Source of the DNA: a virus
Length of the DNA: 36,761 nucleotides
Strand: one strand, 5' to 3'
Virus record (IMG/VR): IMGVR_UViG_3300006119_000029
Coordinates: 1-36,761 of that record
The translations under genes and the position numbers were made by a program. This document shows, one piece after another, positions 7,641-20,500 of this stretch; within the stretch, counting starts at the first letter, position 1; the number at the start of each line of letters is the position of its first letter. A model generated the notes under the pieces. That model was not told the DNA's origin, ran no database searches, and saw only the letters and a list, made by a program, of their open reading frames with translations.

Positions 7641-7782
7641 AAAATGTAGCAGGCACTAAACACTTTTTTTCTACTGCCATAGTTTATTGTCCGGTTCGGT
7701 CCTGCTACACTCGAGTCAGAAGTCCTTTTTCCTGCTAGTCACAGGAATAAAAAAGCCCAGCGTCATTTCTGGGCTTTTTTTT
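7641..7782 (+). ncRNA. Candidate small RNA with 5' stem and intrinsic terminator
   Basis: The plus strand has TGTAGCAGG (7645-7653) perfectly complementary to CCTGCTACA (7701-7709). A second CCTGCTA copy at 7731-7737 could compete for the same pairing. The region ends in the strong terminator at 7749-7782. I see no convincing ORF, and the fold does not satisfy a tRNA cloverleaf although GGTTCGGTCC is superficially T-arm-like. A regulatory RNA of about 135 nt is the best reading. Confidence 0.45.
7749..7782. terminator. Strong bidirectional rho-independent terminator
   Basis: AAAAAAGCCCAG, an 8-base loop, then CTGGGCTTTTTTTT. The A-run and T-run make it work on both strands: for the plus-strand RNA at 7641 and for the glycosyltransferase gene, whose stop codon overlaps its edge. 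Confidence 0.9.
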
Positions 7783-8881
7783 AGACTGTATACCAACCAT
7801 CCCTATTATAGACATCCAACACATCTGAGAAGTAACGTTCATAACGTGGTGCTATCTTCTCTAGTGTAAACTGTTCGGCGTGTGCTAGGCAATCACTTGA
7901 TTTTAATTGATCAACCGTTTTAAGCGCAGTGACAAAGTCTCGAAATGTGTTGCATCTATATCCAGTTACGCCATCTACGTTGAGTTCAGCAAACGCTGCC
8001 CAGTCTGGAGTAATCACAGGCGTGCCACTTAGCCAAGCCTCTACCTGCACTCCGGCAAATGGCTCCAAATATCCACTTGCAACCACAACTGCACTGGCAC
8101 GGCTTAGTAACATCTTGCGTTGTTCAGCATCAGCATAGCCCACTTCAGTTACGTGACTAGGAGTAGAGGCATAGCCCATTTGTGCCAGTGTGCCCTGTCC
8201 TGCAACAATCAGCTTTCGCTTGGCACGTTCAGTTGCCTGTATGATGATGTCTAATCCTTTACCTGAATAGACACGTCCAAGATATAGCACTGTGTCTGTT
8301 TTGTCCTCGCTGTAGACAAAGTCTTCGGGATCAAAGTAGTTGGGGATAACTCTGTGATACCAATCCATATCACAAGTGCCAATCGATTTGGCCCCATACA
8401 TAGCGTTCATTATGGCGTGGCTTTCGTAAATGCGCCAACGTGCAAATGCACTAGGATAGCCAATGCCTGGTTCAATGAATATGCAGTTTGGGCAAGCATC
8501 GTGTATGGCTCGGTGTCCCCAACCCCAAAATCCCAAGACCAATGTGTTGTTGTCTGCGTGTGTGTTAATGTAATCTATGGCGCCTTGCGTGAATGTTTGG
8601 TGTGCATAGTCACGTATATCATAGTAGTGTGCAAAACCATTTGTCTTCCAAGCACCCGACAGATACTCGGCACCATAGGCAATGTTTAGTGTGGTGTCAT
8701 CTGTGACTGCTATGTTGGTGACGCCTGCTGGCACAATGCTGTCTCGATGTCCTATGTGAACAATCTCGTGTCCACGACCGCTCATCATTTTTAAAAACTT
8801 TAGCACCTTACCTGTAAATGCACAGCCCTGCCAATCAGGATGTGTCTTAGTGTGCGGTATCGCCAATACTATTATTTTCAT
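7781..8881 (-). CDS. Glycosyltransferase, GT4/GT-B type (366 aa)
   Basis: Start at ATG 8881 (MKIIVLAIPH); a GGAAAG sequence lies just upstream and the gene overlaps its neighbour by 35 nt. Two Rossmann-like halves are visible. The second has the GT4 donor-site pattern: LGRVYSGKGLDIIIQA (about 201-216), then EPFAGVQVEAWLSGTPVI (273-290), whose Glu273 and Glu281 form the E-x7-E motif. The family transfers sugar from a nucleotide-sugar. Phage enzymes of this kind glycosylate DNA, virion proteins or host surface glycan; the substrate here is unknown. The 3' end meets the bidirectional terminator. Confidence 0.88.
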   Translation of the reverse strand: MKIIVLAIPHTKTHPDWQGCAFTGKVLKFLKMMSGRGHEIVHIGHRDSIVPAGVTNIAVTDDTTLNIAYGAEYLSGAWKTNGFAHYYDIRDYAHQTFTQGAIDYINTHADNNTLVLGFWGWGHRAIHDACPNCIFIEPGIGYPSAFARWRIYESHAIMNAMYGAKSIGTCDMDWYHRVIPNYFDPEDFVYSEDKTDTVLYLGRVYSGKGLDIIIQATERAKRKLIVAGQGTLAQMGYASTPSHVTEVGYADAEQRKMLLSRASAVVVASGYLEPFAGVQVEAWLSGTPVITPDWAAFAELNVDGVTGYRCNTFRDFVTALKTVDQLKSSDCLAHAEQFTLEKIAPRYERYFSDVLDVYNRDGWYTV

Positions 8882-9221
8882 TTCTTTCCATTTCAATAAT
8901 TTTAAATTCAATCACAGCTATGAGTTCGTCCTTTGTAAGAGGTTCAATCATCTGTGGATAGCTGTCTGCACTTATAACTGGCATACCTGTCTTGGTGCGT
9001 TTGGCAGTTCTCACAAGTCCAGTGTAGATGCCATAAGGTGTATCTTGGTAATAACACAAGGTATGCCAATTACTTCTAGTGAAGTTTCTGAAGCTCTCAT
9101 CCACGATTGTAACATACTCCTCCATATCCTCCAAGTCAAGGAAGTAGATCTTGTGTATGCTGTTTGAATTCATTTTTCCAAACTCGTGTTCTATCTTGGT
9201 CAGTAAATATTGTCGAGCCAT
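8847..9221 (-). CDS. Hypothetical 124-aa protein
   Basis: ATG 9221 has the good ribosome site AAAGGAGACTTT. The protein is mixed alpha/beta and acidic, with a helical C-terminus ending NENNSIGDTAH. It lies directly upstream of, and overlaps, the glycosyltransferase gene, so the two are probably co-expressed. No family recognised. It is preceded by an exact TATAAATA element. Confidence 0.75.
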   Translation of the reverse strand: MARQYLLTKIEHEFGKMNSNSIHKIYFLDLEDMEEYVTIVDESFRNFTRSNWHTLCYYQDTPYGIYTGLVRTAKRTKTGMPVISADSYPQMIEPLTKDELIAVIEFKIIEMERNENNSIGDTAH

Positions 9222-10447: not shown

Positions 10448-10978
10448 TTAGTCCAGCCACTTGTAGCCTTGACGTAAAGCCCAGCGCAGTTTGCCTGCAT
10501 AGTTCTTTGTGACATTATACTTGGCAGCAATGTCATCTGTCGAGGCCGAACGGATCCAACGCATATCATCATCTGTGTAACGATACTGTCTGTTTTGTTT
10601 GACCAGACCAGTATTGGTTGCACCACGGTTCACATACTTGCCTAGATCAATGTGAAACTGACTCTTGCCCATTTTGTCTGTAAGCTCAAGGTGGTCTGGA
10701 TTCACACACAATGGGTTGTCGCACTTGTGGATAATGTATTCATCTCTGGTTAGTTCTCTATCCAACTTCAACATCATAGCAACTCGGTGTGCCACTGTCA
10801 TTGTGCTAGTTCGAGTATCTTCTTTTCTCACGCTGAGGAATCCATAGCCCTGAACGTGCCGAGCACCAGTCCACGGCCAGCAGTCACCTGACCGGTCTAT
10901 ACGTGCGTTGTAGTTGTCCAGGTCAAAGCTGGTGTTGCCTATCACGGCTCTGTTGGTTGTTTTAGATTTTCTGCCCAT
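10448..10978 (-). CDS. HNH homing-type endonuclease (176 aa)
   Basis: The core is a typical phage HNH module: DCWPWTGAR (32-40), AHRVA with His64, then HKCDNPLCVNPDHL (84-97) with His84, Cys86, Cys91, Asn93 and His96. This is the HNH_3 pattern in which one His acts in catalysis and the others bind metal. The C-terminal quarter (STDDIAAKYNVTKNYAGKLRWA) looks like a helix-turn-helix that would give DNA target specificity. ATG 10978 has AAGGAAATGCA upstream. It is free-standing, not inside another gene, so it is probably a mobile homing endonuclease. Confidence 0.9.
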   Translation of the reverse strand: MGRKSKTTNRAVIGNTSFDLDNYNARIDRSGDCWPWTGARHVQGYGFLSVRKEDTRTSTMTVAHRVAMMLKLDRELTRDEYIIHKCDNPLCVNPDHLELTDKMGKSQFHIDLGKYVNRGATNTGLVKQNRQYRYTDDDMRWIRSASTDDIAAKYNVTKNYAGKLRWALRQGYKWLD

Positions 10979-11008
10979 TGCATTTCCTTGTGTTATTTGT
11001 TATATTTA

Positions 11009-11015
11009 CTAAATA
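11009..11015 (+). promoter_or_regulatory. T4-late-like element CTAAATA before the plus-strand operon
   Basis: TTTACTAAATACATTATACAGG, 19 nt before ATG 11035. It is the only promoter-like element seen for the five-gene plus-strand operon. Confidence 0.6.
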
Positions 11016-11034
11016 CATTATACAGGACTTTGAA

Positions 11035-11571
11035 ATGAACGGAACAGAACGATTTTTACCTAAACCTGGTGACTCGTGGCATTGGCAGTTGGCCACCTAC
11101 GAAGACATACCAGAATTGGTTGCACTGGCAGTTGCAGAATATCAACGAGAGATTGATGGCCTGCTGGAACCCAGCCCAAGAGCATTCCAATACAACTTAA
11201 CACAGGCCATAACTGAACAAAGTTTTGAATTGAGTCGTGAACAGGTCATTGTGGCACGTAACAAAACTACTGGCGCATTGATGGCCTATGCTTGGTGCAA
11301 GCGTGGTCACTACACGCCCTACAGCACAGAAGAAATGGCCGAAGCTGCCATTGCACACGTTTGTTTAGATCTGCCTGTTCGCACACGCATAACTATAATA
11401 GCACAGATGCTGCATCAATGGATTCTTTGGTGTCACATCTGTGGCATACCAGTTCTAGTCAGTTCAAGTATACGTCAAGAGCAAGCGGCCTTTATGCGCT
11501 TGCACGAACAGTTTGGTTTTCGATTGGTTGGTTTATTGGCAATGAAACGTATTACACAGGACTTGAAATGA
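11035..11571 (+). CDS. GNAT-like acetyltransferase-fold protein (178 aa)
   Basis: Start at ATG 11035 behind AGGACTTTGAA; an upstream in-frame start at 10978 lies in the promoter region. The N-terminus (ATYEDIPELVALAVAEYQ, 20-37) and the C-terminal QAAFMRLHEQFGFRLVG (about 151-167) match the ends of the GNAT fold. The central acetyl-CoA pyrophosphate loop is not clear, so activity is doubtful. GNAT-like genes are common near head and ejection genes of podoviruses and cyanophages. ATGA overlap with the next gene. Confidence 0.7.
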   Translation: MNGTERFLPKPGDSWHWQLATYEDIPELVALAVAEYQREIDGLLEPSPRAFQYNLTQAITEQSFELSREQVIVARNKTTGALMAYAWCKRGHYTPYSTEEMAEAAIAHVCLDLPVRTRITIIAQMLHQWILWCHICGIPVLVSSSIRQEQAAFMRLHEQFGFRLVGLLAMKRITQDLK

Positions 11572-11861
11572 GCTTCTCACACAGACCACAAACAATGACA
11601 CAATCACTATCAGCAAATCCCATATCTTCATTGACTGCACAACAAATCGCACAGATGTATACGGGTTATAGCAGTCAGTCGTCACAGCAACAGGCCGCTA
11701 ATCAATATGGCCAAATGATAGCAGGGCTGGGTCGTAGTCAAGCAGCCACAGCACGTTGGATGTATGATGGTCGAGTAATGGATACGGTAGCATTTGCCAA
11801 TGCTGTGTTTGGAGAAGACACACCAGAGGCAACACATTTTGTATTGAAGCATAGCAAATGA
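11568..11861 (+). CDS. Hypothetical 97-aa protein, member A of a tandem paralogue pair
   Basis: ATG 11568 overlaps the previous stop (ATGA). A Gln/Ser-rich N-terminal half (SSQSSQQQAANQYGQM) is followed by a conserved C-terminal module WMYDGRVM-x6-FANAVFG-x4-EATHFVLKHSK that also ends the next gene. The module may be a small protein-binding unit such as a tether to a virion or chaperone component. No family recognised. Confidence 0.75.
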   Translation: MSFSHRPQTMTQSLSANPISSLTAQQIAQMYTGYSSQSSQQQAANQYGQMIAGLGRSQAATARWMYDGRVMDTVAFANAVFGEDTPEATHFVLKHSK

Positions 11862-12061
11862 GCAATCCCATAGAGATATTAAAACAAATGGGACTGTTAG
11901 AACCATCAGGAAATAAAGCATACAAAGCATTGGCTGATATGCAATGGGAGCCACCAAAATGGATGTTTAATGGTCAGACAATGACCTTGGAACAGTTTGC
12001 ACAGGCAGTCTATGGAGACTCAGCCGAGGCAACACATTTTATATTAAAACATAGCAAATGA
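11858..12061 (+). CDS. Hypothetical 67-aa protein, member B of the tandem paralogue pair
   Basis: ATG 11858 overlaps the previous stop (ATGA). The last half, WMFNGQTM-x5-FAQAVYG-x3-EATHFILKHSK, is clearly homologous to the end of the 97-aa protein, and the final 30 nucleotides are nearly identical at DNA level. The N-terminal half (NPIEILKQMGLLEPS) differs. This looks like a duplication followed by divergence of the front half. Confidence 0.75.
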   Translation: MSNPIEILKQMGLLEPSGNKAYKALADMQWEPPKWMFNGQTMTLEQFAQAVYGDSAEATHFILKHSK

Positions 12062-12074
12062 AAGGAAAAGAACT

Positions 12075-12344
12075 ATGTCAGACGTAGTAGCAGTAAAAAC
12101 TCGCGTAATTTTCACACGCAAAGAAGTTCAAAAGCAGACCGACAGCGGTATCATATTGAGCAATCCAAACCAAGAGCATAATCCCTTGGGCTATGTTCAC
12201 AGCATTGGAGACAAGGTAGATATTGATGGACTTGCAGTAGGAGATGCCATCAGTGTCAACTGGCAGTCAGTGGGTATGTTGGAACACGACAACACCAAAT
12301 ATTACATTGTTGATCAAAACAACATCAACGCCATCATAAAATGA
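12075..12344 (+). CDS. GroES-like co-chaperonin (89 aa)
   Basis: AAAGGAAAAGAACT precedes ATG 12075. The sequence follows the GroES plan: N-terminal strand KTRVIFTRKE, a mobile-loop region with DSGIIL (23-28) matching the GroEL-binding hydrophobic triplet, GYVHSIGD at about 39-46, VGDAISVNW, and a C-terminal YYIVDQNNINAIIK. Its length matches GroES (about 95 aa) and is shorter than T4 gp31 (111 aa). It would replace host GroES on host GroEL to help fold a phage protein, typically the capsid protein. Confidence 0.85.
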   Translation: MSDVVAVKTRVIFTRKEVQKQTDSGIILSNPNQEHNPLGYVHSIGDKVDIDGLAVGDAISVNWQSVGMLEHDNTKYYIVDQNNINAIIK

Positions 12345-12553
12345 GATACAAAGTAGAACACCGGGGCAGCGTTGATGCAACGCCAGTAACTGCATTGGAT
12401 ATCAACAAGATTGAAATTGTTGTGGACGATGACACACCTGACAAGATTGAATTGTATATGTTAGACGAACGTGGCACACGCATTGAAGGTGGCACGTTTG
12501 ACAAAGAAGCCTTTATGGCTGCTGTGAGGCAATTTTACGAAGCGAACTTTTGA
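12341..12553 (+). CDS. Hypothetical 70-aa acidic protein
   Basis: ATG 12341 overlaps the GroES-like stop (ATGA), indicating translational coupling. The protein is acidic with a likely beta strand-rich centre (KIEIVVDDDTPDKIELYML) and a helical end (EAFMAAVRQFYEANF). It is the last gene of the plus-strand operon and its 3' end overlaps the convergent minus-strand coiled-coil gene by 41 nt. No family recognised. Confidence 0.7.
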   Translation: MRYKVEHRGSVDATPVTALDINKIEIVVDDDTPDKIELYMLDERGTRIEGGTFDKEAFMAAVRQFYEANF

Positions 12554-12695
12554 TATCGATCAAGATATTTTCAATAACATCCATACGGTTCTCAAGACGG
12601 TCTAATTTACAGACAACGTCTTGGAACCGTTTTTCACATTCTTCTAGATGATCTTCTAGTGTGGGTTCAATAGTCTTGAGATTCGTCGCGTTCAT
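12513..12695 (-). CDS. Small coiled-coil protein at the end of the late cluster (60 aa)
   Basis: Almost the whole protein is a heptad-type helix (EECEKRFQDVVCKLDRLENRM, 18-38) with two cysteines. It starts inside the end of the Dps-like gene (29-nt overlap) and converges on the plus-strand operon. No ribosome site is obvious, so expression would depend on coupling. Confidence 0.5.
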   Translation of the reverse strand: MNATNLKTIEPTLEDHLEECEKRFQDVVCKLDRLENRMDVIENILIDIKSSLRKIASQQP

Positions 12696-13140
12696 CTAAG
12701 GTGGCCTCAATCATCCAGCGGAACTTGGCAATAACGCCAATCTGATCCTGTGCATAGTTGCTGATATCAACATAGTTGACTTCTTCAGCGGCTGTGTTTA
12801 ATTCGTGGTATTGATCAATCAAGGCCTCTAGTGCTTCCTCAATCATTTCCAACAAAGCCATTGCATCGCCTGTGACTGGCATATCAATGATAGGACTAAT
12901 ACCTACAACTGTGCTGAGGCTATCTGGAACGTAGGCACGTGTTGAACGAATCTTTTCACCAAGGGTGTCTATGTTGTCCTGCAGGCTCTCATAGATCTTC
13001 TGTAATAGTTTGTGATCTTGGTAAAAAGTTCTGCCTTTGATATTGATATGTGCCACGTGAGCACGATAGTAAGCAACAAAGTTTGCGGCAAAAGTGTTTT
13101 CCAAAACTGTGTGTAGGTGTTGTAGGTCCATATCCATCAT
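12667..13140 (-). CDS. Dps-like ferritin (157 aa)
   Basis: Residues 31-62 carry the Dps/ferritin ferroxidase signature with exact spacing to E. coli Dps: His31 (HINIKG), His43 (DHKLL), Asp58 and Glu62 (NIDTLGEK). The extra Asp67 of E. coli is Gln47 here. Length and the four-helix pattern (about 10-38, 40-66, 92-120, 125-150) fit the family. Dps proteins form 12-mers that oxidise Fe(II) with H2O2 and store iron, and some bind DNA; the N-terminus here is not Lys-rich, so DNA binding by a tail is not expected. It is the penultimate gene of the late cluster, after the ejection proteins. ATG 13140 has only a weak GAAAGAT ribosome site. Confidence 0.85.
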   Translation of the reverse strand: MMDMDLQHLHTVLENTFAANFVAYYRAHVAHINIKGRTFYQDHKLLQKIYESLQDNIDTLGEKIRSTRAYVPDSLSTVVGISPIIDMPVTGDAMALLEMIEEALEALIDQYHELNTAAEEVNYVDISNYAQDQIGVIAKFRWMIEATLDERDESQDY

Positions 13141-13145
13141 TTCAA

Positions 13146-13712
13146 TTATCTTTCATTAAGTGGCTTCCAGCCTTGTGCTCTGCGTTGTGCTTCGGCAGCT
13201 CGCATTGTAGCAATTTCTTCTGGACTTGTATAGAACAATCCTTGACCTATTGCACCGGCTGCGGCTGCTGCTGGCAAATATCTGCTGGCCAATTGACTCA
13301 TACGACCCATAAAGTTTGCTGCGCTCGGTGGCTGTGGTGCAACGTTCATTGGACTAGCTTGTGGATGTGGTTGACTTAGTGCTGCATCCCACGCTGGATT
13401 TGCTCCGCCAGTAAATGTTGTTTGTGGTGCTGGAGCAGGCGCAGGCGCAGGAGCAGGCTGTCCACGGAAAGCATTACCTGCTGCATTGACTAATCCTTTG
13501 GCTACTTGATAGCCGCCATATCCTTCTAGACCATATTGCGCTAGTTTAGCAGCGCCAGTTTCAGCCATACCTACATTTTGTTCGTGACGTTTGTTTTCAT
13601 CTGCGGAAGTCAATGGTTGGCTGTGCTCACGGATATATTGATCAATTTCTTCATCACTATATCCATTGGCACGTGCTTCTTCTCTTAACTTATCAAAGTT
13701 TTGTTCGTCCAT
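13146..13712 (-). CDS. Putative internal virion/ejection protein (188 aa)
   Basis: N-terminus EEARANGYSDEEIDQYIREH (about 11-30) is a helical motif often seen at the start of podoviral internal proteins. The middle has (PA)n repeats (GQPAPAPAPAPAP) and a Gly/Ala-rich hydrophobic stretch (YLPAAAAAGAIGQGLFY) that could enter a membrane. One base separates it from the preceding 860-aa gene. Probably ejected with the DNA or part of the core stack; function inferred from context. Confidence 0.7.
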   Translation of the reverse strand: MDEQNFDKLREEARANGYSDEEIDQYIREHSQPLTSADENKRHEQNVGMAETGAAKLAQYGLEGYGGYQVAKGLVNAAGNAFRGQPAPAPAPAPAPQTTFTGGANPAWDAALSQPHPQASPMNVAPQPPSAANFMGRMSQLASRYLPAAAAAGAIGQGLFYTSPEEIATMRAAEAQRRAQGWKPLNER

Positions 13713-13713
13713 C

Positions 13714-16296
13714 TTATCTTCCCATATCTGCTAGTGGTTTAGTTTTAATCCAAGTTTCTGTATTTGGATCATATTCGGGCACTGGATAACGCAAGTATCC
13801 TTGACGGACTGCGCTGGTAGTGCCACCATTTTTACTGATCCACTCAGCACGTTTCTTAGCAATGTCAGCATACATACTGATCAGATTCTGTTGTTCTTTG
13901 CGCCAGGCTTTGTCTAGTTGCAATGCGTTGGCAGCTGGACTTGTTTCAGCCCAGTCACCTTTGTAACGAGCCAAGTCGCCATTGAACTGACTTTGTGCCA
14001 TTGCGTTGTATGCACCCAATGCAGGTATCTTGGTTGGATCAACGTTGGTTTCTCTATTCATACGTTGTTCAGCGTCGCTGACAGAACCAGGACCAGCAGT
14101 GGCACGTAGTGTTGCGCTGTTGATACGTTGGTTGGCAATGTTGTATTCGGCCAATGCTGACTTTTCTTGTGGAGTCAAATCTAGCTGTGCAAGACGTTGG
14201 CTAACTTCTGTTTCGGGTTTGAATGTGCCACCAATGATGTCACGGATAATGCTTAGTTTCTGATCATTTGGATTTTCATTTGCAGAATTATACAAACCAA
14301 ATAGTTTATCAACATTAATACCTGGACGGTTAAAGATTTGGAACTGTTGTTTACGAGTGTTGACAATAGTGTCACCTTGTTGTGCTTGTGAACGAACTTC
14401 TTCATCAAGTATCTTGTTGAATGCTTCGCTACGTGCTCCGCCAACTTTGGCAGCTTGTTCACGTTGACGTGTAAGTTCAGCAATGCTGGTTCCTGCTGCT
14501 GGTGCAGTAGCTGCACCTGGTGGAGTGTAACCTGGCACACGTTGCCAATGCACACTGTCTGTGCCTTCGGGTTGGTAGTAACCTTTTTGTGCAAGTTCGG
14601 CACGTTCATCACGTGTTAGATTACGTGGCAAATCAATTGCTCCACCACGTTCGTGTGCGCTTGTTCCTGGTTTAGCAATCGGCAAATTACCTGCTGTTCT
14701 ACCAGGACGTCCGGCTGCAACACTTTCATCCCACAAGGCTTGTTGTTGATCTGCGCTACGGTTTGCACTAACAATTTTACCACGCAAACTTTCGCTTAAA
14801 TCTTGTCCAATAGCAGCACCAGCTGATGGTGCTGCATTACCGCGTCCACTAACAAATTCACCTTTGTCGTTCATACCAATGTCATCATAAGATACGGTTG
14901 GCTGACCTTCAGCTTGTAGTTTCTTGTTGAGGTCGCCCAACACTGAAACTGCTTCTGCACCTTTTTTGCCTGACAATGCAACCTGTGCTCTTTGGATAGC
15001 AAGTTGACGTTGTAGTGCAACATCGCCGCCAACTGTGATAGGCACTGTTCTGCCTGTTGGCACGCCTGACTTACCACTGTTGTCAAAGAACTGTGAGCCG
15101 CGTGTGGTTGGAACAACGCTCCATTCATTACCAGCTTCGTCGCGCACACGGGTAGCACCTGCGTGTCCAACGTTGCCTTTGGTTGTCATACCAAACGCAC
15201 CAATCTTAGACAATACATCATTGCCAACTAAGTTACCTTGGCTATCAAACGCACGTTCAACATTGCCGTCCTGGTCACGAATAACATTGTAACGATCACC
15301 ATCAACCATTTCGCTACCAGCTGTTTTAGGACCATATCCCAATTTGTTTAATTCATCTTGTGCTTGCTTGCTGAATCCAAGGCGTTGGAATAAGATAGCA
15401 CGAACCCAGCTGCCATCTTTCTTGTTTGCATTCATATAACGACTGTAGTCGTTAGGAGTCATCTCATCAACTTTACGAACTGCTTCTTCGTAGTTGCGTT
15501 GTTTTTCACCATCTTCGGCAAGTAATCTAAATGCTATTTTCTTTTGTGCTTCATTACCTGTGGCAATCAACTGTGCCATTTTGACACGGCGTTGTTCAGG
15601 ATTAGTTTCGTTGTGTGCTTCAATCACTGCTTGCTCTTCGGGCGTAGCTGTAGGAGCCGCTGTTGTTGCAGGTGCTGTCTCTGGAGCCTGATTTGGTTGA
15701 GGTGCTGTGCTTGGTGTGTTTGGCACAGCGCCAGCAGGCATTGGACCATTTGCAGCCAACTGTGTGGGAGCACCTGGTGCGGGTGGTGTTCCAATGTTAG
15801 GAGGAGTTGGTGCTTGTGCAGCTTGTGCTGACTGTGCCAATTGTGCTGGCAACTGTGCTTCAGCTTGTGCTTGAGGTGCTGGCACGGGTGCTGTTGGTTG
15901 TTCAGTCACAGGAGCAGCACCACCTACATTGAATGTTGGTTGTGTTTGTGCTTGTGGTTGGGCCATTGGTTGTGGCATTTGCACACCTTGACCTGGAGCA
16001 ACTTGTCCTAAGCTCTGAATACCTTGACCTGGCGCTGCCGTTGGTGGTGCCAAGTTGTAGTTCATTGCACTTGATGTATCTGGTTCACCAACTGCGTGTT
16101 TGGTTGTTACAGTGTCAGGTTGACCTTGGTCGTTGTAGTTAATGGTTGTTGACTGTGGAGTCAAGTTGGCATTAACACCAAGGTATTGACTCATATCTTG
16201 ATTAAGTCTGTTGTTGAAATAGTTAGACGCAACATCACCCATACTTTGTGGATTGTCAGACATTGCGTTTCCGATTAGTGATCCTAATAATGCCAT
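13714..16296 (-). CDS. Ejection/internal virion protein with an M15-type peptidase domain (860 aa)
   Basis: Residues 1-230 are Pro/Gln/Ala-rich low complexity. A compact region around 500-590 matches the VanY/M15 D-Ala-D-Ala carboxypeptidase-endopeptidase pattern: SANRS (510-514), GTSAHERGGAIDL (544-556) with zinc ligands His548 and Asp555, and SVHWQ with His583. The rest is helical with a charged C-terminal part. A wall-cutting domain in a large late protein next to ejection genes suggests local opening of the peptidoglycan during DNA entry. No separate endolysin is evident. ATG 16296 follows AAGGATTACAA. Confidence 0.8.
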   Translation of the reverse strand: MALLGSLIGNAMSDNPQSMGDVASNYFNNRLNQDMSQYLGVNANLTPQSTTINYNDQGQPDTVTTKHAVGEPDTSSAMNYNLAPPTAAPGQGIQSLGQVAPGQGVQMPQPMAQPQAQTQPTFNVGGAAPVTEQPTAPVPAPQAQAEAQLPAQLAQSAQAAQAPTPPNIGTPPAPGAPTQLAANGPMPAGAVPNTPSTAPQPNQAPETAPATTAAPTATPEEQAVIEAHNETNPEQRRVKMAQLIATGNEAQKKIAFRLLAEDGEKQRNYEEAVRKVDEMTPNDYSRYMNANKKDGSWVRAILFQRLGFSKQAQDELNKLGYGPKTAGSEMVDGDRYNVIRDQDGNVERAFDSQGNLVGNDVLSKIGAFGMTTKGNVGHAGATRVRDEAGNEWSVVPTTRGSQFFDNSGKSGVPTGRTVPITVGGDVALQRQLAIQRAQVALSGKKGAEAVSVLGDLNKKLQAEGQPTVSYDDIGMNDKGEFVSGRGNAAPSAGAAIGQDLSESLRGKIVSANRSADQQQALWDESVAAGRPGRTAGNLPIAKPGTSAHERGGAIDLPRNLTRDERAELAQKGYYQPEGTDSVHWQRVPGYTPPGAATAPAAGTSIAELTRQREQAAKVGGARSEAFNKILDEEVRSQAQQGDTIVNTRKQQFQIFNRPGINVDKLFGLYNSANENPNDQKLSIIRDIIGGTFKPETEVSQRLAQLDLTPQEKSALAEYNIANQRINSATLRATAGPGSVSDAEQRMNRETNVDPTKIPALGAYNAMAQSQFNGDLARYKGDWAETSPAANALQLDKAWRKEQQNLISMYADIAKKRAEWISKNGGTTSAVRQGYLRYPVPEYDPNTETWIKTKPLADMGR

Positions 16297-16305
16297 TTGT
16301 AATCC

Positions 16306-17028
16306 TTAAATGCTAATACCAAAACTGGTTTTATCGCTGGTGCTTGTTGAGCCTTGTGTGCCGCTGAAGTTTGGATTGTAAGCTGCGCTTGGTGTTCCAA
16401 ACAACACGCTTGAATATTGATTATACAACTGTTGTGGAGTCATAGCTGCTGTAACACCAGTTTGTGCTGCACCTAATGCCTGTCCAAGTCCTGCTTGTCC
16501 TGCACCAGTTAGGCTTTGGCTTGCTGCAATACGTTGTTGGTTGATGTTGTTTTCAACTGTTGCTGCGGCTTGTTCTTGTGCTGCTTGTGTTTGTCCAGCA
16601 GTTTGTGCTTGAGCGAGAGCTTGACGTGCTGAACCTAATTCGCCTGTGCCACCAAATTGTGCTGCTTGGTTTTGCAAGTTTTGTGCATACTGTGCTTGTG
16701 CAGGAGCCAGTGCTGCTGCCAACTGTTGTTGTTCGTAACCTGCACTGTTGACGTTTTCCAAACCTTGTATGCCAGTCTGAACTGCGCTTTGGCCTGTGGT
16801 GCCCAGGACGTTTTGTGCTTGTTGTGCAGTGCCAGCCAGGTTTTGTGCTGCCTGTGTTACACCAGGTGCTTCTGCGTTGTATAGGTTAGTTGCGCCAGTA
16901 ACTGCTTGTTGATATGTAGGTTCAACAGTTCCGGTAAAGAAACCCGTTTGTGCCGCAATCTGAGCATTTTGCTCTGGGCTTAGTGTTGGTATTGTGGTTG
17001 TTGTTCCACCGCTTTTTCCGAAACTCAT
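16306..17028 (-). CDS. Ala/Gln-rich ejection-type protein (240 aa)
   Basis: Starts MSFGKSGGTTTTIPTLSPEQNAQ, an N-terminus seen in many marine podovirus DNA-ejection proteins (P22 gp7-like position). The remainder is low-complexity helix rich in Ala, Gln and Gly. ATG 17028 has GGAGAACACAA upstream, and two late-type elements lie 24 and 35 nt before it. Likely part of the channel or core that guides DNA into the cell. Confidence 0.7.
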   Translation of the reverse strand: MSFGKSGGTTTTIPTLSPEQNAQIAAQTGFFTGTVEPTYQQAVTGATNLYNAEAPGVTQAAQNLAGTAQQAQNVLGTTGQSAVQTGIQGLENVNSAGYEQQQLAAALAPAQAQYAQNLQNQAAQFGGTGELGSARQALAQAQTAGQTQAAQEQAAATVENNINQQRIAASQSLTGAGQAGLGQALGAAQTGVTAAMTPQQLYNQYSSVLFGTPSAAYNPNFSGTQGSTSTSDKTSFGISI

Positions 17029-17062: not shown

Positions 17063-20000
17063 TTATTTAGATGGAGCAACAGGTCCGCCTGCTGCTGCTT
17101 GGCCTAAGCCTAATGTTTGGTTTACCAAAGTATTAATGCTAGGGAAGTTGGTATAGTTTGCTGGCACAACAGGTGCAAGGCTAGCACGAGGATACGCACT
17201 CAATGCTTGGCTTTGTCCCAAAGATTCTGCAATCAAATCTTGTATGTTCATAGTGTTTGAACCAACTCCTTGTGCGCTGGCGGCACCCCAACCTTGTGCA
17301 TTGGCCGGAATCTGTGTGTTCCAGTTGTTGACATCTGCTGGATTTTGAATCAATGGACGTCCGCCCCAATAGTAATTGGCCTGTGTGCCTGTGGCTGGTA
17401 GTTGTGGTTTGACAACATTAGGTCCCATTAGCAGGCCTGGGTTGGCACCAGGATTGATAGGTGCTACGGCTGTGCCTAGTGGATAAGATCTGTTGTTGTA
17501 GTTGGCTGAACCTGCTGTGCCAGTTCCACTTAATAATGCACCTGCTGCTGCACCTGCTAGGGCTGGCAATAACCAACCTGGTGTTCCACCGGCTGCTGCT
17601 GTAGTTCCTGCTGTAGTTGGTGCAACTGCACTTGTGCCTGGAGGAATCACAGTTTGATCAACTGGACTCAATGGTGCTGGTGTTTCAACTGGTGTTACGG
17701 CACTTGTTCCTGGTGGAATAACAGTAGATTCAGGAGCAACTGGTGCAGGAGCGGTAACTGGTGTTGCGACAGGAGCAGCGGGTGCGGGTGCTGTAACTGG
17801 AGCAGTAGGTGCAACCGGAGTTGGTGTTGTAGCCGGTGCTGATATTGGACCTGCACTGGTGCCTGTTCCTGTTGTGCCTGTTCCTGTTCCAGATACTGGT
17901 GTTCCAGTAGTTGGTGGTGTTGCGACAGGTGCGGTTGGAGTAACTGGTGTTGCTGCTGCGGGAGCGGCTGCTACTGGTGCTGCTGCGGCTCCACCGCCAC
18001 TTGCGGCTGCTGCCAATGCACCTGCGCCTAATGCGGCTGCTGTGGTTGGTGCAATGGCTGCTGGTGCTGCTACTTCTGGTGTTACTGCGCCAGTTACATC
18101 AACTGGAGTAACTTGACTAATGCTGGCGGCACCTTCGGGCACTGCTGGAGTGGCTGCCGGTGTAACAGGAGACAACTCACCGGTGCCACCTACAACTCCT
18201 GGTTCGTTTCCAACGCCACCAACTTCAATACGCACTGCACCATTTTGAACAGGATATGTTTGTCCACTGGCATCTGTCCAAGTTGTTCCTGTGGCATTGT
18301 AGCCGCCAGTGCCTGGTGTTACTTCAGCAACTTGTGTGCCTGGACCAGGTGTTGGCATTTGTGGTGCTAGACTAGATTGGGCACCTGTGGCATCCAAAGT
18401 TTCACCTGTGGTTAGATTGTAGGTGCCCACACTACCATCAGGCAATGTAACTGGCACTGTGTTGCTGGCTGCTGTTGTTGTAGCTGCTTCGGTAGTTGGA
18501 GCAACTGGTGCTGCGGCTGCTGGTGCAGCTTCAGCTGGTGCTGCCGCTGAAGGTAATGCTGTTTCAGTAACAGTTCCTGCACTTGGTGCAACTGGTGCTG
18601 CTGTTGCTGCTTCTGGTGCAACTGCACCTGTTGTAGCACCTGTTGTTTCAGCAGCCGGAGCCACTGTGGCAGCTTGTTCTGTGGTCAAGCCAACTTCAGT
18701 TGATGGAATGCTGCCTGAGGCAACACCATTTTGTAATGCTGTGCTGACTTCAGCTGGGTTTACGCCAGCGTTGGTTAATGCAGTGTCTGTCAATGTGCCA
18801 CTGTCGGCCATACCTAATAGTTCAGGATTGGTAATACCTACTGCCAACAATGCACCAGCAGCCACACCTGCCCAGCCACCTGGAATGGTTGACTTGACAA
18901 AGTTGTTGATACCACTTAGGGCACTGGTAAGTGCTTCGGGTGCAGGAGCACGGCTGGCCTGGCTTGCTGCTACCGAGGCAGCTTCTTGCTGAGCACTGAC
19001 AGCGTTTTGTGCTTGCTGATTTGTTGTTTGTGCTTGTTCAAGCGCAGTCTGTGCTGATGCTGCATTTTGTGCAGCCGCAGGATAGTTGGCAGCAAGGTCG
19101 CCTGTGACTGTTCGATTTAGCTCAGCAGCTTGATTTAAGTTTTGTGCCAACTGAGCAGTTACGGCAGGATCAGTGCTCTTGTTATTTTGATATGCAGTCA
19201 ATGCTGATTGATAGGCATTTTGTGCATTGGTGATAGCATCTTGTGGACTGTTGTAAGTGCCTAACAAACTGGTTGCAGCTGGACCCAATGTTTTTAGATC
19301 TTGCTGAATTGTGCTCATAGCACTGTTATCAGTTTTGGCTTGTGTTGCGGCTGCGGCTTGTTTTTCAGCAGCTTGTTGTGCTGCTTCTTGTTGAGCACTG
19401 ACAGCATTTTGTGCTGCCATTAGATTTTTGCCAGCAGCACCAGTTTGTTGTTGTGCTAGGCCAGCTGTGTATTGACCGCTGCCATATGTTTTGTTTACAG
19501 CATCAGATGCAGCCTGTAATTTTTGTGCCAATTGAACTTGTGTAGCAGGATCAGCTGAGCCAGCATTTTGATATGCTGTCAATGCCTGTTGATATGCTTG
19601 TTCTTCTGGACTGGCATTGAACGCATTTACTGCTGATGTTTGTGCTTGTTGTTGAGCATAGTTAGTAACATCAGTTTGTGTTGTGTTTAATTGTTTTTGG
19701 AATGTTGTAGTTGGAACAACAGGCGCATTGGCCTGTGCATTGCCTTTGGCATCAACTGCCTGCATACCACCGCCACTGCTTTTATACCATTGGCCAGGTG
19801 TATTAGTTGTAGGATCAGCAGGCACATAGGTATAAGAACTACCACTTGGATCAGTGACTGTTTGAGTAGTTGTGGTGTTGTCATTACCAGTAGGCAATGA
19901 AAACTTGGCCTGTGCGGCTGTTGTTGCAGCTTGTTTGGCTGCTGCTGCATCAGCTTGTTGTTGAGCAAACTGTTGTGCTGCTGCTTGTTGTGCAGCCTGA

Positions 20001-20500
20001 TTGGCTGCTTGTTGTTTGGCATTGGCCGCAGCATTGGCTGCTTGTTGTGCTGCTAAATTTTGTGCAGCAATATCTGCGGCAGTTGGTGCAGCTGGAGCCG
20101 CAGGTGCTACTGGTTTGGCAGCTGCCTGTGCTGTAGCATAAGCAGTGGTGCCAGGAATGGTTGGAGCAATACTCTTGTTGTAAGCAGCCATCTGTGCGCC
20201 AGGACCTTGGCTGGCCGTGGCACCCAATTGTTGATATGTGCTGGTCTGTTGTGCTGCTGGCAATTTGGCAATGGCAGCTTGATCAGCAGGACTTAGATAT
20301 TGTCGGGCAAAAGCCTGTCCAGCAGTCAATGCTTGTGATTGTGCCTGTGCCGCTGCCTGCTGTGATGCCACAGCCGCAGCCTGTGCCTGAGATTTTTGTT
20401 GTGCGGCTGCTTGAGCTGCTGCCTGTTGTGCTAGTGCAGCTTTTTGTGCTGCTAGGTTTGCAGCGGTCTGGGCTGCGTTGAGAGGTTTTGCTGTGGCCAT
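17063..20500 (-). CDS. Very large Ala/Gln/Pro/Thr-rich ejection-type protein (1145 aa), probably leaderless
   Basis: About the first 540 residues are Ala/Gln helix, including two tandem copies of a roughly 115-aa unit (AYQxALTAYQN...QLAQ...AQNAVSAQQEAA). The middle and C-terminal parts are Pro/Thr/Ala-rich. There are three hydrophobic stretches (GWAGVAAGALLAVGI, ALGAGALAAAASGGG, PGWLLPALAGAAAGALL) that could span a membrane. No enzyme motif. Such proteins in P22-like phages (gp16, gp20) leave the virion to form the DNA channel. There is no ribosome site; ATAAATA ends 5 nt before ATG 20500. Confidence 0.75.
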   Translation of the reverse strand: MATAKPLNAAQTAANLAAQKAALAQQAAAQAAAQQKSQAQAAAVASQQAAAQAQSQALTAGQAFARQYLSPADQAAIAKLPAAQQTSTYQQLGATASQGPGAQMAAYNKSIAPTIPGTTAYATAQAAAKPVAPAAPAAPTAADIAAQNLAAQQAANAAANAKQQAANQAAQQAAAQQFAQQQADAAAAKQAATTAAQAKFSLPTGNDNTTTTQTVTDPSGSSYTYVPADPTTNTPGQWYKSSGGGMQAVDAKGNAQANAPVVPTTTFQKQLNTTQTDVTNYAQQQAQTSAVNAFNASPEEQAYQQALTAYQNAGSADPATQVQLAQKLQAASDAVNKTYGSGQYTAGLAQQQTGAAGKNLMAAQNAVSAQQEAAQQAAEKQAAAATQAKTDNSAMSTIQQDLKTLGPAATSLLGTYNSPQDAITNAQNAYQSALTAYQNNKSTDPAVTAQLAQNLNQAAELNRTVTGDLAANYPAAAQNAASAQTALEQAQTTNQQAQNAVSAQQEAASVAASQASRAPAPEALTSALSGINNFVKSTIPGGWAGVAAGALLAVGITNPELLGMADSGTLTDTALTNAGVNPAEVSTALQNGVASGSIPSTEVGLTTEQAATVAPAAETTGATTGAVAPEAATAAPVAPSAGTVTETALPSAAAPAEAAPAAAAPVAPTTEAATTTAASNTVPVTLPDGSVGTYNLTTGETLDATGAQSSLAPQMPTPGPGTQVAEVTPGTGGYNATGTTWTDASGQTYPVQNGAVRIEVGGVGNEPGVVGGTGELSPVTPAATPAVPEGAASISQVTPVDVTGAVTPEVAAPAAIAPTTAAALGAGALAAAASGGGAAAAPVAAAPAAATPVTPTAPVATPPTTGTPVSGTGTGTTGTGTSAGPISAPATTPTPVAPTAPVTAPAPAAPVATPVTAPAPVAPESTVIPPGTSAVTPVETPAPLSPVDQTVIPPGTSAVAPTTAGTTAAAGGTPGWLLPALAGAAAGALLSGTGTAGSANYNNRSYPLGTAVAPINPGANPGLLMGPNVVKPQLPATGTQANYYWGGRPLIQNPADVNNWNTQIPANAQGWGAASAQGVGSNTMNIQDLIAESLGQSQALSAYPRASLAPVVPANYTNFPSINTLVNQTLGLGQAAAGGPVAPSK
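17064..17070 (-). promoter_or_regulatory. T4-late-like element CTAAATA before the 240-aa ejection gene
   Basis: Minus-strand CTAAATAAAGAGTAAATATAC, with a second, weaker GTAAATA at 17059-17053. It overlaps the stop codon of the 1145-aa gene in a different frame, so it is not just a by-product of a stop codon. Confidence 0.6.

Follow-up and report, generated by a model that had tools for sequence, protein, structure and literature searches.

Dps-type mini-ferritins have been described both in bacteria and in bacteriophages. The bacterial proteins (Dps, NAP, Dpr and MrgA; PF00210) are four-helix bundles with a BC helix and bear the same four ligands as the protein analysed here, and some Dps proteins are known, from the title of PDB 1o9r, to give protection without any DNA binding. 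In the accessible text of the published reports, Dps is encoded by gut 'Gratiaviridae' and other gut phages (PMC8008677) and Dps-like proteins by Lactobacillus myophages, where the gene lies near DNA-metabolism genes (PMC6669764), and a part in oxidative stress or iron handling has been proposed for both (PMC8008677, PMC6669764). Ferritin is likewise included in the 'phage-mediated ROS defense' of freshwater phages, the genes of which are treated as host-protecting in the available portion of that report (PMC6802176).

Here we analyse a Dps-type gene in a 36,761-base IMG/VR virus record (IMGVR_UViG_3300006119_000029), the whole of which is referred to below as the window. In dozens of related phages it occupies the same place and has kept its iron-binding residues unchanged, and on that account it appears to be a functional core gene of its lineage.

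Gene order around the Dps locus

Most window genes lie on the minus strand, among them those encoding the terminase, the portal, an SU10-type capsid protein, a 1505-aa tail fibre and further virion proteins. The minus-strand run ends in the order 17063-20500, 16306-17028, 13714-16296, 13146-13712, the Dps ORF (12667-13140) and a 60-aa ORF (12513-12695), and is followed by a convergent plus-strand block (10978-12553). The features on which the analysis draws are listed below, with the basis of each assignment in brackets.

12667..13140, minus strand: Dps-type mini-ferritin gene, 157 aa (PF00210, phrog_3636, PDB sequence and fold matches, invariant ligands)
13146..13712, minus strand: upstream gene of the same run, encoding a variable protein of 188 aa (position, relatives, C-terminal motif in common with the product of MW202484 23487-24815)
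13714..16296, minus strand: probable virion protein of 860 aa with a VanY-type peptidase domain (PF02557, 7.7e-6; syntenic in relatives)
16306..17028, minus strand: conserved lineage protein of 240 aa, used as the upstream marker (present in relatives; without a family match)
12513..12695, minus strand: coiled-coil-like ORF of 60 aa, last of the minus-strand run (relatives in many loci)
10978..11571, plus strand: convergent gene, 197 aa, used as the downstream marker (within 4.5 kb downstream of Dps in relatives)

A sequence-only reading of the window had described 12667-13140 as an ORF with His31, His43, Asp58 and Glu62 at Dps spacing and as the penultimate gene of the late cluster. Both points were borne out: the ORF lies on the minus strand and encodes 157 aa, the ligands H31, H43, D58 and E62 are spaced by 12, 15 and 4 residues, and only 12513-12695 comes after it in the minus-strand run. 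A gap of 5 nt lies between the stop codon of 13146-13712, the upstream gene, and the Dps gene, whose 3' end overlaps the 60-aa ORF by 29 nt. Since most relatives begin at the equivalent of window Met4, the true start may be at 13131, giving a protein of 154 aa. The same reading placed the gene after ejection-protein genes. The terminal position within the virion-gene run holds and is conserved, but the 'ejection' label is inferential: 13714-16296 carries a VanY domain (7.7e-6), whereas family profile searches returned no informative match for 16306-17028 and 17063-20500.

In the same type of search all coiled-coil matches of the 60-aa ORF were sub-threshold, and a Pfam search with 10978-11571 returned no match; by eye, the product of the latter appears N-acetyltransferase-like. 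Within the convergent block, 12075-12344 (plus strand) encodes a small GroES-like protein (best NCBIfam match 2.4e-8, below cut-offs) that is kept in many relatives, and elsewhere in the window 7781-8911 (minus strand) encodes a glycosyltransferase (phrog_3408, 1.6e-119) shared by few of the relatives examined (L009, for one, at 56%). Promoter and terminator scans around the Dps gene gave no decisive signal, a terminase scan of genome_contigs for a host yielded zero matches, and no tRNA gene, a possible host clue, was found in the window.

Family membership and predicted fold

The Pfam Ferritin profile (PF00210) matched residues 13-150 of the Dps ORF product at 4.5e-11 (43.3 bits, cut-off 24.5), and phrog_3636, labelled 'DNA binding protein', aligned with it over its full length (2.1e-25; residues 4-148 on 3-147 of 149). 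Its sequence relatives in the PDB are Dps/NAP proteins, with H. pylori NAP as the best (2e-11), and its identity to solved Dps proteins is about 13-27%. Scores against the NCBIfam Dps equivalogs are below their cut-offs (for NF006975, 33.6 bits against 114), and the window protein is therefore a divergent member of the Dps group. DUF5856 (PF19174) also scored below its cut-off (26.5 bits, 1.4e-5; cut-off 34.6), a match that makes a distant relation between the two families possible.

An AlphaFold2 monomer model, built from 28 aligned sequences, reached a pLDDT of 95.1 and a pTM of 0.89. Its helices (2-33, 39-66, 75-81, 93-120 and 124-155) form a four-helix bundle in which 75-81 is the short BC helix. 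The sequence-only reading had named any fold other than a four-helix ferritin bundle as grounds for giving up the identification and had proposed a Foldseek comparison; the predicted fold is that bundle, and Dps/NAP structures head the Foldseek matches (HP-NAP, TpF1, and the Dps of Vibrio and of Bacillus brevis). VIA-align scored the model at Z 22.4 against both T. elongatus Dps and dodecameric MrgA, and with Z values of 20-22 against solved dodecamers the best structural matches of the model are dodecameric. Structural alignment with Listeria Dps sets residues 7-150 onto 7-152 and leaves the numbering nearly unchanged, so that H31 and H43 coincide with or neighbour the positions at which 2bjy, 2bk6 and 2bkc are mutated.

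Four BFVD matches (A0A6J7WPK9, A0A6J7XDU5, A0A6J7WIS1 and A0A6J5LAB8) are Dps-like domains inside longer uncultured-phage proteins, annotated either as prohead protease (333-763 aa) or, at 754 aa, as ParB/Sulfiredoxin. Provided that these names are right, such proteins would represent fusions of Dps to capsid-maturation proteins.

Conservation and position among relatives

Relatives were collected by scanning IMG/VR with the protein (19 loci), with the family alignment (87 loci, 80 of them kept) and with an independent neighbouring marker (8 loci), and the resulting alignment set comprised 70 distinct phage Dps sequences, four deposited phages among them. H31, H43, D58 and E62 are identical in all 70, F39 and Y50 are likewise unvarying, and N33, N128 and W142 show one variant each. 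The residue after the first ligand His is Trp in bacterial Dps but mostly V, I, F or M in the phage set, and where a fifth acidic residue is usual the phage proteins mostly have Q or K; because of these replacements, the kinetics of the phage proteins may differ from those of bacterial Dps. Codon alignments of 40 pairs of relatives, some of them near saturation, gave a median dN/dS of 0.16 by substitution counts, which shows purifying selection on the Dps gene among close relatives.

Sequence, predicted fold and the invariance seen in the 70 relatives all strongly support the proposal of a Dps-like ferritin with intact ferroxidase ligands. A chance occurrence of the motif is ruled out by the profile matches, the fold and the invariance of the ligands. 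Recent capture of a host gene was also rejected, no close cellular relative having been found among those scanned: when genome_contigs was scanned for the pattern of the family alignment, a method insensitive to distant relatives, no cellular relative came up. Plasmid-borne Dps proteins match the window protein at 26-30%.

The surroundings of the gene are similarly constant. A virion-run gene lies within 4.5 kb upstream of Dps in 34 of the 36 distinct loci with enough flank, and in the two exceptions (L150 and L166) the 16306-type marker is present slightly beyond that distance; a 10978-type gene lies within 4.5 kb downstream in all 54 distinct loci whose flank is long enough. The latter gene runs opposite to Dps in most loci and shares its strand in three. 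Loci found by Dps always have Dps, and the 36 and 54 loci, collected in that way, are uninformative on the frequency of its absence; we offset this bias by sampling with the 240-aa marker and with the terminase as baits. Terminase sampling gave 41 records. Dps is present in all nine that hold both the 16306 and the 10978 markers and in 8/8 of those longer than 30 kb, counts that include near-duplicates (e.g. the 50.4- and 54.5-kb records) and hence stand for fewer independent lineages. Terminase-sampled records without Dps are mostly shorter than 25 kb, and none holds both flanking markers. Dps is thus lineage-specific, yet apparently fixed in this uncultured podovirus-like lineage, the nearest deposited relative lacking it at this place.

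Two of the longer records contain duplicated genes: a 54,495-nt record (L036, L040) carries the terminase twice, and a 50,398-nt record carries the 10978-type gene twice, approximately 34 kb apart. Both contigs therefore seem to exceed one genome unit, through end redundancy or joined genomes.

The nearest deposited phage is Podoviridae sp. ctfne034 (MW202484, Manatee Spring), with 50% identity in the terminase and 45% in the portal. Relatives of both marker genes, 16306 and 10978, are present in it, and the product of its 23487-24815 gene has a C-terminal motif in common with the window 13146-13712 protein, but it lacks Dps at the corresponding place, where the 13146-like gene is followed by one for a short coiled-coil protein that includes a hydrophobic segment, and then by probable lysis genes. 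Dps was therefore either gained in the lineage of the window or lost from that of MW202484. Away from the Dps site, MW202484 38492-38848 (L191) encodes a DUF5856 protein (3e-20) with the pattern H-x8-H-x14-D-x3-E, in a ferritin-like register; judged by sequence, DUF5856 may be a shortened relative of Dps, a truncated kind of phage mini-ferritin.

Proposed role and comparison with known systems

We put forward, with somewhat better than even confidence, that the Dps of this lineage is a catalytically competent mini-ferritin made late, together with the virion proteins, for the detoxification of Fe(II) and H2O2. The intact ligands, the predicted fold and the purifying selection argue for working iron chemistry. 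Gene order suggests that the protein would be synthesized late, alongside the virion proteins. Twelve subunits would then assemble into a cage, with Fe(II) held between subunits by H31 and H43 of one and D58 and E62 of its neighbour, and oxidation of the bound Fe(II) by H2O2 (or O2) would yield a mineral core. Fenton reactants would in this way be removed while new genomes and virion proteins build up and host iron proteins are dismantled, a protection that would be chemical in nature rather than a coating of DNA. We count against such late detoxification that the nearest deposited relative, MW202484, manages without Dps at that site. The sequence-only reading had suggested protection of phage DNA, detoxification of iron, or packaging and ejection as roles, and sequence by itself does not discriminate among these three.

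Virion packaging is the main rival. Dps would here be a minor constituent of the virion, carried inside the particle or on it and possibly ejected, that protects encapsidated DNA or acts at entry. In nearly all relatives the gene comes immediately after probable internal or virion protein genes of the same run; structure predictions place Dps domains in proteins of uncultured phages that bear the name prohead protease; and the proteins identified by mass spectrometry of a Vi01-like phage include a ferritin-like one (PMC10892097), although that study warns of cell-debris contaminants and found no dependence on the iron pathway. The window Dps is, however, a free protein of 157 aa with no targeting signal and no fusion to a virion protein, and S-EIVl, S-SRM01, LAh_8 and Gilson carry their Dps gene among non-structural genes. 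We consider packaging unlikely, if the strongest of the alternatives.

Ranking behind it, and also improbable, is an accessory function in which Dps would aid the infected host against external oxidative stress, such as photochemical H2O2 or grazer phagosomes. The available text of two reports speaks for this function, one counting ferritin among the ROS-defence genes of freshwater phages (PMC6802176) and the other making a similar argument for gut phages (PMC8008677). One would nevertheless expect an accessory gene to vary in presence and site from genome to genome, whereas Dps is here fixed at one site, and production late in infection, just ahead of lysis, would bring little gain for host survival. 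We give slightly less credence still to Dps being a true virion protein of this lineage, or one associated with capsid assembly, whose cage would travel with the particle or be built on it and shield encapsidated DNA from iron-driven damage, with the Dps domains in the proteins named prohead protease of other uncultured phages acting likewise.

The charge of the protein bears on a last alternative. The window Dps has a net charge of -16 and a pI of 4.5, its C-terminal tail (DERDESQDY) is acidic, and its N-terminus is not Lys-rich, with a mean of 0.3 Lys/Arg before position 13 across the lineage. For an acidic protein without a basic tail, direct binding or coating of DNA is unlikely, and DNA coating via a basic tail is unsupported for the window protein. 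Basic C-terminal tails are found in some relatives (e.g. EIEGRHTDRGRRG), so DNA contact may vary between clades. That Dps acts as a classical DNA binder, compacting the host nucleoid or phage DNA, is very improbable given this acidity and the near absence of Lys/Arg from lineage N-termini, even with the label of phrog_3636 and the basic tails of those relatives in its favour.

Set against known systems, the late-made mini-ferritin that we propose differs from bacterial Dps in that its Trp is mostly replaced, its fifth acidic position is Q or K and its N-terminus is not Lys-rich. A Dps of uncultured Caudovirales (A0A6J7WGJ1) has 45% identity to it and the same fold, and is already named Dps. 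The Dps proteins of S-EIVl, S-SRM01, the Aeromonas LAh phages and Streptomyces phage Gilson bear the same four ligands but are only 28-33% identical, often across half the protein, and are encoded in larger genomes, among non-structural genes. The 'Gratiaviridae' and the Lactobacillus myophages are phage groups, with hosts, other than those of the window lineage. A fixed position in the virion run is not described for freshwater phage ferritins in the accessible text of PMC6802176, nor did we find lineage-wide fixation beside virion genes stated in the available portions of the literature on phage Dps. Phage-encoded Dps is already known; the present analysis adds a fixed location for it, locked to one site where a virion-gene run ends. 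Phage Dps genes have so far been treated as accessory stress genes, whereas here the gene is apparently fixed and retains an invariant ferroxidase site, so that iron/peroxide chemistry during virion production becomes a testable core need of these phages.
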